A program made the translations under genes and the position numbers. Shown piece by piece: positions 52,020-61,793 of a DNA stretch of 64,000 nucleotides; the stretch's first letter is position 1, and the number at the start of each line of letters is the position of its first letter. The DNA lies in assembly GCA_030018355.1 (NCBI GenBank), contig JASEFN010000002.1:234699-298698 (forward strand), in the 5' to 3' direction. This DNA comes from Caldisericia bacterium. GTDB lineage: Bacteria; Caldisericota; Caldisericia; B22-G15. The notes beneath the pieces were generated by a model. The model saw only the letters and a program-made list of their open reading frames with translations. It ran no database searches and had not been told where the DNA came from.

Positions 52020-52661
52020 ATGAAAAGTATAAAAAAAGAGAGAAAAATATCTAATAAAACACTTGAAAGACTTGCAATTTACTATGAAATTTTAATAACT
52101 CTTCCAATTAAAAAAAGATTTATCTCAAGCGAAGAGTTAGGAAAGTTAGCCGGGGTCTCTCCGTCAACTGTAAGACAAGATTTTTTATATTTCAAAGATA
52201 TAGAAGGAAAAGCAAAAATTGGATATAAGGTTCTTGAATTGAAATCAGCACTTAAAAAGATCTTTAAGTTAAACTCAATTACTCATGCAGTTATTATTGG
52301 AGCAGGAAGTTTGGGACAAGCAGTTGCAGGTTATGACTCTTTTAAAAAGAGCAAAATAGTTTTTGATTCATTTTTTGATAATAATCCAAATAAAATTGGG
52401 AAACTTGTGAGAGGAATTTTTGTTAGAGATGTTAAATATCTTAAAGATTACCTTAAAGAGAATAAAAAGGTAAAAATTGGGGTTATTTGTGTTCCTCCAA
52501 AAGAAGCACAAGGAATTGTAGATATATTAGTTGAAAGTGGAATAAATTCAATTTGGAACTTTTCTCCAACAATTTTAAAAGTTCCTAAAGAGGTAGTAGT
52601 TGAATATGAACATATAGGCGTTAGTTTCTATAAATTACTCTATAAAGCAAAAAATCAATGA
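52020..52661 (+). CDS. rex: Redox-sensing transcriptional repressor Rex
   Basis: 213 residues. N-terminal winged helix (TLERLAIYYEILITLP, FISSEELGKLAGVSPSTVRQDFLYF) and NADH-binding Rossmann fold (HAVIIGAGSLGQAVAGYDSF), with the domain-swapped C-terminal helix (HIGVSFYKLLYK). Rex dimers release DNA when NADH is high and control fermentation genes; Por, glpK and gcv genes in this window are plausible targets but I did not find clear Rex sites. Leaderless start; overlaps the next gene by four bases. Confidence 0.95.
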   Translation: MKSIKKERKISNKTLERLAIYYEILITLPIKKRFISSEELGKLAGVSPSTVRQDFLYFKDIEGKAKIGYKVLELKSALKKIFKLNSITHAVIIGAGSLGQAVAGYDSFKKSKIVFDSFFDNNPNKIGKLVRGIFVRDVKYLKDYLKENKKVKIGVICVPPKEAQGIVDILVESGINSIWNFSPTILKVPKEVVVEYEHIGVSFYKLLYKAKNQ

Positions 52662-53722
52662 AAATACCACCAATTAATTTAATAAGAAAAGATTTTGAAA
52701 GTTTAAAAGAAAAAGTTAAATTAAAAACATCAAAAGAAGTTTCAGATTTAATTTTAATGCAAACAATTGAAGGTCATGCACACAATGGACATGGTGAATT
52801 TTCTGGAAAGAAATTTGTTGATACAACAATGAATGATATTGTTTTTGCACTTGGATTTGATGCATATGCAATAAGAAGTGCAAGACAAAGTTTAATTGAT
52901 GAAATATATGATTTTGTTGAAAGAGTTATAAATGGTGAGAGTTTAAATAAACTTCAAAATAGAAAAGGCGAATCCATTTTAAGAGTTTCTTTTTTTGATG
53001 AGATTGAAATTGATAGTAAAGATGTTCTTTTGGGCCTTTATCTTGGTGGGCTTATGGATGATTATGAAACAAGAAGAGAAGTTGAGAAAGTTTATGGAAT
53101 AAATATTGGTGGGGGCAAACCATATCTTGTTGATTTTTCACTTTTGGAAAGTTTAGATATTGATGGTGAATATCTTGCACATGAAGAAAATGAAGAGAAA
53201 ATTGAATACTATAAAGAAATTGGACTTATAATAGATTTTGATGAAAAAAATTATTCAATTTTTCTTGAACATCCTTCAATTAGATTTCAATATATAAGGC
53301 ATAAAAAAGGTTTAGGTGTTTCAGATGACCTTGCGGTTTTATTTAGTGGAAAACTATATTCAAAATCTGTTGCTCTTGGAGTTTATCTTGCAGATGCAAT
53401 TGATACTTTAGATAAATATTCACTTAAATTTATGGAGCAAGATTTTGAACTTGCAAAAAAAATTGAGAAAAGCGGAATTTTAAATATAAAAAAAGATGAT
53501 ATTTTTAAATTTATTTATCTTATTACAAATCCAATTAAAGATTATCCAGACTCATCTCAAAGGTACTTTCTTGAAATAAATCAAAAATATAATATAACTT
53601 CTATTGAAGCACATTTAATGTTTATTGATGGAATTAATCCTCCTGAATTTGAGATTGCTTTTGAAAGAGTTTCAAATCATAAAGTTTATGAATATGTTAT
53701 AAATAAACTTAAAAGTGTTTGA
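52658..53722 (+). CDS. Conserved-looking protein of unknown function between rex and holB
   Basis: 354 residues; I do not recognise it. Soluble, no signal peptide. Features: MQTIEGHAHNGHGEFSGKKF near residue 36 with His-rich HAHNGHGEF; GFDAYAIRSARQSLIDEIYDF; GLYLGGLMDDYETRREVEKVYGINIGGGKP; QYIRHKKGLGVSDDLAVLFSGK; and the C-terminal SIEAHLMFIDGINPPEFEIAFERV. Overlaps rex and holB by four and eight bases, so it is translated with them. The His cluster could bind metal (inference). Confidence 0.6.
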   Translation: MKIPPINLIRKDFESLKEKVKLKTSKEVSDLILMQTIEGHAHNGHGEFSGKKFVDTTMNDIVFALGFDAYAIRSARQSLIDEIYDFVERVINGESLNKLQNRKGESILRVSFFDEIEIDSKDVLLGLYLGGLMDDYETRREVEKVYGINIGGGKPYLVDFSLLESLDIDGEYLAHEENEEKIEYYKEIGLIIDFDEKNYSIFLEHPSIRFQYIRHKKGLGVSDDLAVLFSGKLYSKSVALGVYLADAIDTLDKYSLKFMEQDFELAKKIEKSGILNIKKDDIFKFIYLITNPIKDYPDSSQRYFLEINQKYNITSIEAHLMFIDGINPPEFEIAFERVSNHKVYEYVINKLKSV

Positions 53723-55541: not shown

Positions 55542-55569
55542 ATTATAAAAATTTTTATCTAATTGTCAA
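55542..55569 (-). promoter_or_regulatory. Promoter of tRNA-Ile
   Basis: Minus strand: TTGACA (55564-55569), 16-base spacer, TATAAT (55542-55547), ten bases before the tRNA. The -35 overlaps the stop codon of the DUF996-like gene. Confidence 0.82.
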
Positions 55570-56534: not shown

Positions 56535-56557
56535 AAGTGTGTAAATTTTACACACTT
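56535..56557. terminator. Long hairpin between convergent genes
   Basis: AAGTGTGTAAA (56535-56545) and its exact complement (56547-56557) form an 11-arm dyad between the small membrane gene and the eRF1-like gene, whose stop codon begins in it. No T run follows on either strand, so termination is plausible but unproven. Confidence 0.45.
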
Positions 56558-57693
56558 TAAAATCTCCATAGAGAACCAATTCCATCATTTAAATCAAGTT
56601 CCTTTGCCTCATTTCCATGTAAAATAGTTAATTCACTCTTATACTTTTTACAGAGTTCATGTATATAAAATCTTATATTTTTTAATTCATACTCTTTTGT
56701 ATTGCAAACAGGACAACTTTCTCTTTCTGTGTAAAAATAACTACAACTTTTACAAATTTTTACTAATCTATTAATATTTTCTGAGATTATCAATTTATCA
56801 ACTCTTCCATCTTGTAGAATCTTTAGTGTCGAATCAAGACCAACACCGGCAAGATTGCTTGTTGATGCTCTTTCAAAGAGAGTGTTAAGTATTTCTCTCT
56901 CTTTATTTTTATTTATTTCTTCTAACTTTTTAATTCCAAGAAGGATAATTTCATTTATTGTTACATTTGATGGAGCATTAAGTTTTAAGAATTTTTGAGA
57001 AGGAGGAGGCACATTTAAAAACATATAAATGTTTTCTTCAGCGTCAGAATTAACAAAAATTACTTTTAATTCATCAGAATCTTTTAAGACTTTTTCTTTA
57101 AAATCTGATAAGGCTTTTTCAATAAAAAGAGTGTATTTCTCTTCATAAGCATCTTTAAGATCACCTCCGCCAACTGCTCCTATACCTACACCACTTTTTG
57201 GTGCAGAGGGAGGCATAATGTGTTTTCTTTTCCAAGTTGAGGTATCAATTTTTGGTTCTTCTTCAAAAATTAATTTTTCCTTGAAAAAAATTACTTTATA
57301 AAAAGAAAATTTACTTTCAGTAAAATTTACTATTCCAAAATCTGGATACTCAATTTGAGCCCAATAAAATTGATATAAATTTGGTTTTCCAAAGAAAATT
57401 TCATTTCTTAATGGAAATTCATAAAAAAATTCATAAATATTTTTTAGGGATGAAAAAACAAAAAGTGACTTTCCTTTAACTCTCATACCCTCAAGATAGT
57501 TCAAAAGATTCTCTTTTGATCTCTCAAAAATTTCTCTTTCCTCTATATTAACTTCATCTTTAACACTCTCTATTAATTTTTTTGTTATATTCAAAATCTC
57601 CTTTTTACCGATAGAAGGAGTAATTGAAAGATATAATGAAATTCCAGTATCCTCTTTAATAGAATTTAATTCTTGAAATCTTAAATCATTCAT
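56557..57693 (-). CDS. Bacterial eRF1-family (baeRF/Vms1-like) protein
   Basis: 378 residues in the eRF1 layout: an N-terminal domain (GISLYLSITPSIGKKEILN), a middle RNase-H-like domain with a glycine-rich loop (GVGIGAVGGGDLKDAYEEK, residues 168-186) where eRF1 has GGQ, and a C-terminal L7Ae-like domain (AGVGLDSTLKILQDGRVDKLIISEN). A zinc ribbon follows (C314, C317, C327, C330). Such baeRF proteins are proposed in ribosome rescue or peptidyl-tRNA release. Here the GGQ glutamine is missing (GGG at 175-177). GAGGAGG site precedes the ATG. Single gene. Confidence 0.75.
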   Translation of the reverse strand: MNDLRFQELNSIKEDTGISLYLSITPSIGKKEILNITKKLIESVKDEVNIEEREIFERSKENLLNYLEGMRVKGKSLFVFSSLKNIYEFFYEFPLRNEIFFGKPNLYQFYWAQIEYPDFGIVNFTESKFSFYKVIFFKEKLIFEEEPKIDTSTWKRKHIMPPSAPKSGVGIGAVGGGDLKDAYEEKYTLFIEKALSDFKEKVLKDSDELKVIFVNSDAEENIYMFLNVPPPSQKFLKLNAPSNVTINEIILLGIKKLEEINKNKEREILNTLFERASTSNLAGVGLDSTLKILQDGRVDKLIISENINRLVKICKSCSYFYTERESCPVCNTKEYELKNIRFYIHELCKKYKSELTILHGNEAKELDLNDGIGSLWRF

Positions 57694-57759
57694 AAAAACC
57701 TCCTCCTTAATTTTCTTCCTAATTTAATTTTACCTTATAATTAGTAAAGGAGGTAAATT

Positions 57760-59043: not shown

Positions 59044-60171
59044 CTATTTAAACTTATCTCTTATTTCTCTCAATAATTCTCTTATTGGTAAATTTTGAGG
59101 ACATTTTTCTTCACATTCACCACACTCTCTGCAATTTGATGCTCTCTCCTCCTCCTTTAAATATTCATATTCCCAAAAAGCCTCCTTTATGTCTCCATAC
59201 ATAATTAAATTGTTATAAATTTCAAAATTTTCTGGAATATTTACTCCATATGGACAAGGAAGACAATACTTGCATTTTGTACAATCTATTGTTTTTAAAT
59301 TGAGCCATTCATTTCTTGCCTTGATAATTACTTTTAAATCTTCTTCACTCAATGAATTAGTATTATATTTACTTGCAATTAAAATGTTTTCTTTTACTTG
59401 ATCCATAGAACTCATTCCACTTAAGACTGTCAAAATTTCTTTTTTGTTAAACAAAAAAGACAAAGCCCACTCTACTGGTGTTCTTTTAATTTTATAACTT
59501 TCAAAAACTTTAAGAACAGATGTTGGAGGAGAAGCAAGTTTTCCACCTTTATTTGGCTCCATAATTATGACTTGAATTCCTTTACTATAAGCATAAGAAA
59601 GACCTTTCTCTCCTGCTTGATAATTTATATCCATATAATTTAATTGAATTTGGCAAAAATCCCAATCATAATAGTCAATTATATCTTTAAAAACTTCAAA
59701 TTCATCATGAAATGAAAAACCAAAGAATCTTATTTTTCCCTCTTTTTTCTTTTTTATTAGCCAATCTAAAACACCTAAGTTTTTTACTTTCTCCCATGAA
59801 TTTTTCCATAATGAGTGAAGAAGATAAAAATCAATATAATTTGTTTTTAATCTATTTAATTGAACATTAAAATAAAAATCAAAATCTTCGTATTTTTCAA
59901 TTTTCCAAACTGGCATTTTTGTAGCAAGATAAATTTTTTCTCTTACCCCTCTTTTTTCAAAATAATCACCTAAAAAGATCTCACTCATTCCACCATGATA
60001 TGGATATGCAGTATCAATATAGTTAACTCCATTTTCTATTGCATAATCAAGCATTTCATAACTTTTTTTAATATCAATATCCTCTTCGCTTTCTATTGTT
60101 GGGAATCTCATTGCTCCAAATCCAAGTTGAGAGATAAGAATATCTCCTTTAATAAATTTTCTATAAATCAT
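59044..60171 (-). CDS. Aldo/keto reductase with C-terminal ferredoxin domain
   Basis: 375 residues. AKR barrel with LGFGAMRFPT, YAIENGVNYIDTAYPYHGG (catalytic Asp/Tyr), KMPVWKIEKYED (Lys) and FYLLHSLW (His). A C-terminal Fe-S part has CTKCKYCLPCPYGVNIP and CRECGECEEKCPQNLP. This is the ferredoxin-fused AKR type of anaerobes, probably ferredoxin- or NAD(P)H-linked; substrate unknown. AGGAGG site; overlaps the upstream kinase-like gene by four bases, so the two are co-translated. Confidence 0.88.
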   Translation of the reverse strand: MIYRKFIKGDILISQLGFGAMRFPTIESEEDIDIKKSYEMLDYAIENGVNYIDTAYPYHGGMSEIFLGDYFEKRGVREKIYLATKMPVWKIEKYEDFDFYFNVQLNRLKTNYIDFYLLHSLWKNSWEKVKNLGVLDWLIKKKKEGKIRFFGFSFHDEFEVFKDIIDYYDWDFCQIQLNYMDINYQAGEKGLSYAYSKGIQVIIMEPNKGGKLASPPTSVLKVFESYKIKRTPVEWALSFLFNKKEILTVLSGMSSMDQVKENILIASKYNTNSLSEEDLKVIIKARNEWLNLKTIDCTKCKYCLPCPYGVNIPENFEIYNNLIMYGDIKEAFWEYEYLKEEERASNCRECGECEEKCPQNLPIRELLREIRDKFK

Positions 60172-61793
60172 AATTCCTCCTTTAATATTATTACTTCATA
60201 TGGTGAATAATGTCTTAATGAAGAGATTCTAAAATTTAAAATTCCCTCCTTAAGTTTTCTAAATTCTTTCTTGTTCAATCCCTCAAGAAGATACTTTATA
60301 GAAAGAATCATCGTTTCATACCTTCCTTTTTTAAGATTCTTTCTTAAAACTCTTTCATTTTTAATTAAATAGTCATAAAGTTTATTATAATCTATTTCAA
60401 TTTGATCAAAAGAAAAAATGCAATATGTCCACATTCTTGAAACTTTTTCTAAAACTGTATGAGGTGGTTGCAAGATGAATATATTTTTTGAAAATCTTTC
60501 ATTGTTTTTAATATAAAAATTCTCTTTTTTTAACAAGTCTATTCCTATTTCAAGAAATTTTTCATAAAAAACTTTCAAATCTTCAACTAAAAAACTATTT
60601 ATGAAATTTTCTTTTAAAATTCTTTTTCCAAATGGATATTCAAAAATAAAAATATTTTCAAAAGCACCAAAAGGTCTTGGAATGTGAGGAAATGTATAAT
60701 ATTCAAGTGTTATAAAAAAATCTTCAAATTTTTTTATAAGAAAATTTAATAAAAAAGTTTTTATCCCTTTTTCTTTATTTTCAAAAATAACTTTTCCTAA
60801 AGGAACAACATGTTTTGTTTCTATTATTCCATCAAAAGATTTAAGTCTATTTGTGATTGAAAGATTAAATTTAATATCTGCCTCTTCAAAAATAATTTTT
60901 GAATAAAACTCCTTTTTTTCAAAAGATTTTTTCTCTTTTATCTTTTTTACTTTTAAAACCTTTCCTCTAATTTCTTTAAATCTTTTACCAAATTTTGTTG
61001 GAACTTCTTCTATAACTTCCATATGATCCAATGTTGATTTTAAAAAAGGCTCAATTAGTTTTTTTAATTTATTAAAATTTTTTTGATTAAATTTTTTCTC
61101 ATCACCATTTAAAATTAGATATAAATTTGCAAGATTAATTAATGAGAATCTCTTTTTTCCTAAAAATTTAATCAAATCCTTTTTGTTTCTTTTAAAATAA
61201 TCATTTATTTTAAAATAATCAAATTTTATGCTTTTAACACCAAAATCAATTCTCTTCCATAAATTAGAGATAACATTTGGCAAAATTGAAATTTCAGGTT
61301 CTTCAATTATTAAATTTTTAACATAATTTGAAGTTGGTTCTACTATATCTTGAAAAATATAAATTCCGGCTTCATGAAAACATCTTCTTGCTTCATCTTC
61401 ATCTAAAAGTTTCACAGGAAGGTAGGTAAAAAGTTCCTCATCAAAATAAAGTGGGTAATAACCTTCAAGACCCCATACAAATTCGTAATAATATCCAAAT
61501 GTATCAAATCCAAGAAGCCTTGGAATATGAGGAAATTTATATAATTCTTTTCTTAAAAAATAATCATCTAACTTTTTAGCAATAAGATGTCTTAAAAATT
61601 CTGAAAAAGATTTTTTAAAAAGAAGTTCTTTGCTTATAATATCTCCCTTATGGAGTACTCTATAACTTGTTAGAAAATCTCTTTTTGTGTAAAAATTTTT
61701 TTCAAAAAAAGGAAAAGATCTTCTAAGTTCAAGATAAACAGTTGCTTCACCTCCATGCCCAATTTCTGTTATCCTTTGAACTTTTTCATCCAT
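60168..61793 (-). CDS. Internally duplicated protein with kinase-like features, unrecognised
   Basis: 541 residues, no clear signal peptide. The N terminus ITEIGHGGEATVYLE resembles a protein-kinase glycine loop. Residues about 85-250 and 365-520 are diverged copies: KFPHIPRLLGFDTFGYYYEF vs TFPHIPRPFGAFENIFIFEY; then NLWKRIDFGVKSIKFDYFKI vs RMWTYCIFSFDQIEIDYNKL, each followed by a YLILNG/YLLEGLN helix. The first copy has HEAGIYIFQDIVEPT where kinases have the catalytic HxD loop; the second is more degenerate. Function unknown; a pseudokinase or lipopolysaccharide-kinase-like fold is possible. Leaderless start (TATAAT six bases before the ATG). Divergent from a sensor protein. Confidence 0.5.
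   Translation of the reverse strand: MDEKVQRITEIGHGGEATVYLELRRSFPFFEKNFYTKRDFLTSYRVLHKGDIISKELLFKKSFSEFLRHLIAKKLDDYFLRKELYKFPHIPRLLGFDTFGYYYEFVWGLEGYYPLYFDEELFTYLPVKLLDEDEARRCFHEAGIYIFQDIVEPTSNYVKNLIIEEPEISILPNVISNLWKRIDFGVKSIKFDYFKINDYFKRNKKDLIKFLGKKRFSLINLANLYLILNGDEKKFNQKNFNKLKKLIEPFLKSTLDHMEVIEEVPTKFGKRFKEIRGKVLKVKKIKEKKSFEKKEFYSKIIFEEADIKFNLSITNRLKSFDGIIETKHVVPLGKVIFENKEKGIKTFLLNFLIKKFEDFFITLEYYTFPHIPRPFGAFENIFIFEYPFGKRILKENFINSFLVEDLKVFYEKFLEIGIDLLKKENFYIKNNERFSKNIFILQPPHTVLEKVSRMWTYCIFSFDQIEIDYNKLYDYLIKNERVLRKNLKKGRYETMILSIKYLLEGLNKKEFRKLKEGILNFRISSLRHYSPYEVIILKEEL

Follow-up and report, generated by a model that had tools for sequence, protein, structure and literature searches.

The window analysed here is a 64,000-nucleotide stretch of contig JASEFN010000002.1 from a Caldisericia bacterium with a genome of 1.41 Mb in 14 contigs. 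On its minus strand, at 56557..57693, lies a coding sequence for a 378-aa divergent baeRF/Balon-type protein with an eRF1 fold, identified from the reading frame, its orthologues, a structural model and structural matches, at the place where the original prediction had put an open reading frame for a bacterial eRF1-like (baeRF) protein. Read from the sequence, the frame starts with ATG and has a Shine-Dalgarno-like AAGGAGGAGG just 5' of it (57699..57708, minus strand); its GC content is 26.8%, against 26.9% for the window. The product is predicted to comprise an N-terminal domain (approximately residues 1-105; 57379..57693, minus strand; model and sequence), which is without NIKS and by analogy would face the decoding side, a middle domain (approximately residues 106-240; 56974..57378, minus strand; model and full-length structural match), which by analogy would face the peptidyl-transferase side, and a C-terminal domain (residues 246-378; 56560..56958, minus strand), delimited by the model together with a Pfam eRF1_3 hit of the single protein that stays below the cut-off (E 2.2e-4).

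The neighbouring genes in the window encode, according to Pfam, a DUF996 protein, a PSP1 protein and a DHDPS-family protein, and a Pfam scan of ten window neighbours revealed no HPF or stress genes forming an operon with the baeRF-type gene. The RNA fold upstream of the gene is no better than that of shuffled sequences (z 0.15), the promoter/terminator scan returned nothing tied to the gene and the Rfam scan gave no match besides tRNAs. Elsewhere in the window, a perfect TTGACA-16-TATAAT (55542-55569, minus strand) stands about 10 bases upstream of a tRNA-Ile gene (55531-55455, minus strand). Two further frames are without a Pfam match: a 541-aa frame at 60168-61793 (minus strand), in which FPHIPR..G...EF..G seems by eye to occur twice, as in an internal duplication, and a 354-aa frame at 52658-53722 (plus strand), located between a gene for a CoA-binding/DNA-binding regulator, presumably Rex-like, and a DNA polymerase III delta-type gene.

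Full-length orthologues were found in three other genomes of the genus (80, 55 and 55% identity) and in none of the other 50 of the 54 Caldisericota genomes searched, which confines the protein to one genus (4/54 genomes). A different Caldisericota genome (G037) holds a protein (L064) with a weak PF18854 match below the cut-off (E 7.8e-4). Compared with the nearest orthologue, dN is 0.118 and dS is 1.23 (Nei-Gojobori, with synonymous sites near saturation), corresponding to a dN/dS of about 0.1, and none of the four orthologues contains an internal stop. The gene is under purifying selection, and the full-length orthologues together with the excess of dS over dN show that the frame is more than a chance one. 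A DUF996-type neighbour is kept in 4/4 genomes of the genus and a DHDPS-type neighbour in 3/4, the contig ending there in the fourth (outside the window, neighbours were matched by eye).

A first model built from seven sequences was poor (pLDDT 58.8), and its fold search was set aside. The AlphaFold2 model from a 45-sequence alignment reaches a pLDDT of 88.3 and a pTM of 0.80, with confidence below 50 at residues 1-3 and 157-177 only, and has the three-domain fold of the eRF1/aRF1 superfamily. Foldseek ranks Msmeg1130 (Balon) from the ribosome of M. smegmatis highest (TM 0.74-0.77, versus about 0.5 for eRF1), and lists Vms1 (6r84) at rank 49. In VIA-align, Msmeg1130 is again first (8v9l, Z 27.8, 353 residues aligned, rmsd 3.5 Å), alongside further ribosome-bound Balon entries (8v9j 27.4, 8rd8 22.1, 8rdv 21.9, 8rdw 21.8 and 8v9k 19.8), with eRF1 at Z 19.3 or below (rmsd about 9) and aRF1 (4af1) at Z 18.0. 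Among the matches listed, Pelota/Dom34 chains score Z of about 12-14 over some 190-240 residues, the best being 2qi2 (14.0, 191 aligned), 3oby (13.7, 221) and 2vgm (13.4, 235); Vms1/VLRF chains are not among the 50 VIA-align matches listed. The three-domain eRF1 layout that had been proposed from sequence is thereby borne out, and structure prediction, the check suggested at the time, gave eRF1-fold matches with Balon ahead of eRF1/aRF1 and Pelota/Dom34 weaker. Because both programs place Msmeg1130 first and near full length, the three domains are predicted to be arranged much as in Balon.

The sequence-based case for Balon is weaker than the structural one. With the single protein, the NCBIfam aRF1/eRF1 model (E 1.2e-7) scores ahead of the MSMEG_1130 model (E 0.0035), both far below the cut-off, and a search of PDB sequences gave weak hits to eRF1, hits to some unrelated proteins and none to a Balon chain. 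Built from the four orthologues, a profile matched C-terminal regions of eRF1/aRF1 and a few unrelated chains in the PDB (best E 1.2e-4); Balon chains were absent from its hits up to E 1. When three distant relatives were added to the profile, Msmeg1130 was matched end to end (3.4e-14, versus 2e-9 for aRF1), and a 45-row profile, most rows of which come from outside the genus, matched it at 5e-37. It is the model, together with profiles containing other baeRF proteins, that puts Balon first.

Neither the window protein (E up to 1) nor the four genomes of the genus yielded a match to PF18854 (baeRF_family10), while all ten relatives scanned from outside the genus (L005-L007, L016-L018, L020, L021, L023 and L024) exceed its cut-off. 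Aligned over the full length with hhalign, profile A1 matched A5 (18 sequences from one other phylum) at E 1.2e-25, A6 at 6.1e-28 and A7 (a five-row group) at 7.7e-15. The protein is therefore homologous over its full length to members of baeRF family 10, but has neither a PF18854 score nor the conserved loop Gln. It also has neither hallmark of a classical eRF1/aRF1 release factor: a GGQ with the catalytic Gln is lacking, and NIKS is absent from the 378-aa translation. The features by which Balon is recognized in PMC10901736, in the parts that describe it (the fold, the domain arrangement and the absence of both NIKS and GGQ), are all found in the sequence or the model. The rule set out in PMC13324472 for calling archaeal Balons combines monophyly with a lack of NIKS and GGQ, and the Caldisericota protein qualifies on the latter half. 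We conclude that it is a divergent member of the baeRF group that includes Balon.

Homologues came from 682 genome searches, repeats included, with uneven sampling across genomes; 10 of the 40 listed homologue places had no locus and were left out. L001 is the window gene itself, whereas L005, L006, L007, L036 and L059 repeat L013, L010, L011, L017 and L016. L008 and L009, whose contigs are as long as those of L003 and L004, were left out of the counts, L054, L055, L057, L061 and L062 (<330 aa) were dropped, and A4 rows L026, L027, L030, L032 and L035 are partial. The match of L047 stops before the ribbon described below; this row was counted as ribbon-less among the 50 rows and left out of the trees. 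The resulting 49-row tree, with the loop, Gln and ribbon columns kept in and Balon sequences not among its rows, contains a 28-row clade (support 96/86) marked by a long loop of the DTxW form, which is otherwise found in the very long row L056 just outside. The genus is sister to the five-row A7 with a support of only 87/74; its stem is long, at 1.86 changes per column, and we are unsure of its place inside the long-loop clade. Parsimony on this tree requires one change for the long loop, three for the ribbon and nine for the Gln, so that the Gln trait changes often. Outside the genus, 20/25 rows of the long-loop clade keep the Gln; these relatives may therefore be release factors.

The long loop, equivalent to the GGQ loop, was delimited by orthologue alignment and model at residues 146-183 (57145..57258, minus strand); the region reads WKRKHIMPPSAPKSGVGIGAVGGGDLKDAY and includes IDTSTWKRKHIMPPSAPKSGVGIGAVGGGDLKDAY (residues 149-183). 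The segment that the original prediction had put at the peptidyl-tRNA hydrolysis loop, GAVGGGDLKDAYEEK (residues 172-186), is indeed located there: in the model it spans the end of the low-confidence loop (157-177) and runs into a long helix (176-204) that comes after strand 138-145, the third strand of the middle domain, and this site fits where section 2.3 of PMC6514570 locates the catalytic loop. In line with the predicted lack of the glutamine, no Gln occurs at residues 146-189 in 4/4 orthologues; a Gln190 present in two of them (L003 and L004) lies inside the helix and outside the loop. Profile-profile alignment places the GGQ/GxQ motif site at GGGDLKD (residues 175-181; 57151..57171, minus strand). 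In the alignment with A5, SRGAQRDTFDAR pairs in register with GGGDLKDAYEEK, with Leu179 opposite the Gln and Gly176 opposite an Arg that is invariant in A5, and in the alignment with A7 it is Lys180 that stands opposite the Gln. The third Gly of GGG had been considered as the stand-in for the Gln and was dropped, the profile alignments giving Leu179 or Lys180. Aligning the loop across homologues, as had been proposed, thus upholds the absence of the Gln and moves its position to these two residues.

With Gln scored at either the Leu179 or the Lys180 column, 28 of the 50 aligned homologue rows carry it and 22 do not (genus 0/4, A7-type 2/5, G270 phylum 18/20, all others 8/21). Counted from 145 to 183, the loop measures 39 residues in the four orthologues, 35-37 in A7 and 37 in 20/20 G270-phylum rows; all other rows have 19-34. 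When the two sub-clades of the genus are compared, identity is 70% over columns 154-183 and 55% overall; this stretch ranks 41st of 349 alignment windows, with the peak at 93-122 (four sequences, one genus); the loop is somewhat better conserved than average, but not extremely so. In PMC6514570, section 2.3 links a narrow loop length to Gln-keeping families, and family 10 is given as one in which the Gln is well conserved. The DTxW loop is absent from Msmeg1130, which carries an AGQ whose Gln aligns near the motif site of the window protein. Since Msmeg1130 is nevertheless counted by its authors, in the account of its motifs in PMC10901736, as lacking GGQ, Gln by itself is not enough to tell a Balon from a release factor.

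The ribbon predicted in the C-terminal region as CxxC...CxxC is present as C314-x2-C317-x9-C327-x2-C330 (56704..56754, minus strand), an insert in the C-terminal domain placed by the orthologue and Msmeg1130 alignments, and its four cysteines are invariant in 4/4 orthologues. It occurs in 42/50 rows (genus 4/4, A7-type 0/5, G270 phylum 19/20, others 19/21), the sole ribbon-less row of the G270 phylum being a truncated one. As 18 of the 22 Gln-less rows also carry it, the pairing of a lost Gln with a ribbon, singled out in the original prediction, is not a special combination. One long-loop subgroup (L010, L011, L012, L014 and L016) is the only one without the four-Cys ribbon in any row; two of its members have the Gln (GGAGQDLF) and three do not (GGSGKDLF twice, TGLRDKF). 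The segment of the window protein aligned with the Msmeg1130 insert carries the ribbon, and the Msmeg1130 segment has no Cys. According to PMC6514570, where it treats this site, many families of baeRF proteins carry a two-strand insert there, which the paper suggests to be a degenerate ribbon; our count of 42/50 agrees with that suggestion. In Balon, a β-hairpin insertion of the C-terminal domain takes part in EF-Tu(GDP) binding according to the structural description in PMC10901736, the main text of which does not contain the word zinc. We infer that the two-strand insert and the β-hairpin are one and the same insert, and the four cysteines of the Caldisericota protein may bind zinc.

The same genome encodes RF1, RF2, SmpB and a long, 177-aa HPF, the gene for which is located on the same contig at a distance of about 120 kb; a second baeRF was not found in the genome. 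With these factors present, the baeRF-type protein is not the only factor for release, rescue or hibernation. As reported in the sections of PMC10901736 on the ribosome complexes, Balon occupies the A site whether the ribosome is vacant or translating and is found there with EF-Tu in the GDP state, Msmeg1130 and Rv2629 also bind the A site, and all three proteins are without NIKS and GGQ. These complexes of GGQ-less relatives, which that paper assigns to hibernation, date the earlier remark that such proteins are rarely studied. We consider the Caldisericota protein to be probably a non-hydrolytic, Balon-like A-site plug that acts in hibernation. A non-hydrolytic role had been one of the two options offered originally and probably stands, while the ribosome quality control attached to it gives way to hibernation as the more likely context, because the best structural match, Msmeg1130, is a GGQ-less relative with that assignment in PMC10901736. 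Several observations count against the Balon reading: sequence searches with the protein alone or with the four orthologues do not rank Balon first, the neighbours are not stress genes and HPF is encoded far from the gene, most long-loop relatives outside the genus keep the Gln, a Gln is present near this position in Msmeg1130 too, Msmeg1130 has neither the DTxW loop nor the cysteines, and the loop has low confidence in the model.

The main rival is a rescue or quality-control factor of the Pelota/Dom34 type, which would recognize stalled ribosomes from the A site without hydrolysis and promote their splitting. Pelota/Dom34 likewise lacks the catalytic Gln (PMC6514570, section 2.3), its isolated C-domains match at Z 12.7-13.6 in VIA-align, and Burroughs and Aravind, in the functional proposals of PMC6514570, name the relief of stalled ribosomes as one baeRF role. 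Over the whole protein, the likeness is nevertheless weaker (14.0, 13.7 and 13.4, versus 27.8 over 353 aligned residues for Msmeg1130), and SmpB provides the standard rescue route, which leaves this explanation a limited chance of being right. The other option offered originally, a different catalytic residue, would make the protein an active peptidyl-tRNA hydrolase using, for example, Asp181, Lys180 or His158, and we found no positive evidence for it. The single loop length in the four orthologues, its above-average conservation, the link between narrow loop length and Gln-keeping families drawn in section 2.3 of PMC6514570, and an Asp181 that is invariant in the 11-row long-loop set could all be read in its favour. 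The equivalent Asp, however, stands beside an intact Gln in relatives (GAQRD) and is therefore no replacement for it, the Gln positions are taken by Leu or Lys, and the A5-invariant Arg just before the motif is a Gly; hydrolysis by another residue is thus quite unlikely.

Least probable by far is a laterally acquired gene that is decaying or functionless. Its restriction to one genus among 54 Caldisericota genomes and its long stem would suit such an origin, but the selection estimate largely refutes it, and the uninterrupted reading frames, the conserved cysteines and loop and the retained DUF996-type and DHDPS-type neighbours argue in the same direction.

Under the favoured Balon-like reading, when cells are stressed or growing slowly, the protein would enter the ribosomal A site and plug it with its three domains. 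The N-terminal domain would lie at the decoding side, and the long DTxW...MPPSAPK...GGG.LKD loop of the middle domain would be directed at the peptidyl-transferase centre, presumably without peptidyl-tRNA hydrolysis because the Gln is absent. The C-terminal domain and its ribbon would point to the side at which factors bind and at which EF-Tu(GDP) is contacted by Balon, and may make a similar contact. As an outcome, translation would be paused and the ribosome kept intact. A bolder and rather doubtful extension is that the ribbon-bearing baeRF is the older form and the EF-Tu hairpin of Balon a former zinc ribbon now devoid of metal. In the genus, a Gln-bearing, release-type protein would then have become a pure A-site plug, with a fixed-length loop gripping the peptidyl-transferase centre and a zinc ribbon engaging EF-Tu(GDP), so that ribosome parking could respond to the zinc or redox state.

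None of the papers listed in searches of an open-access library was seen to describe the Caldisericota protein or ribbon-bearing Balons. This work adds to the range of Balon-like proteins a Caldisericota lineage missed by the Pfam baeRF models. It also provides a natural comparison within one long-loop clade, between proteins with RGxQ (18/20 rows, one phylum) and proteins that lost the Gln (4/4 in the genus), and this pair is what the question of peptide release by any bacterial eRF1-like protein of this kind calls for.

Compared with known systems, the Caldisericota protein shares with Pelota/Dom34 the absence of the catalytic Gln (PMC6514570, section 2.3) and the C-domain fold, but matches it less well over the whole length. 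With aRF1/eRF1 it has the fold and the domain order in common, and aRF1 (4af1) has cysteines in an insert aligned at the corresponding position of domain 3, whereas GGQ and NIKS are missing and the structural score does not exceed 19.3, versus 27.8 for Msmeg1130. Family 10 of the baeRF proteins (PF18854; PMC6514570, family description) aligns over the full length at the profile level for three member groups (E 6.1e-28 to 7.7e-15); unlike that family, the protein has no PF18854 match and lacks the Gln that is well conserved there. From Msmeg1130 it differs by an identity of only 13-14% and by its 39-residue DTxW...PP...GGG loop and four-Cys ribbon, the corresponding Msmeg1130 segment being Cys-less. 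With the Balon family as presented in PMC10901736 (Msmeg1130, Rv2629 and P. urativorans Balon), it nevertheless shares a whole-length three-domain eRF1 fold without NIKS and GGQ, and a similar C-terminal G...LR ending.
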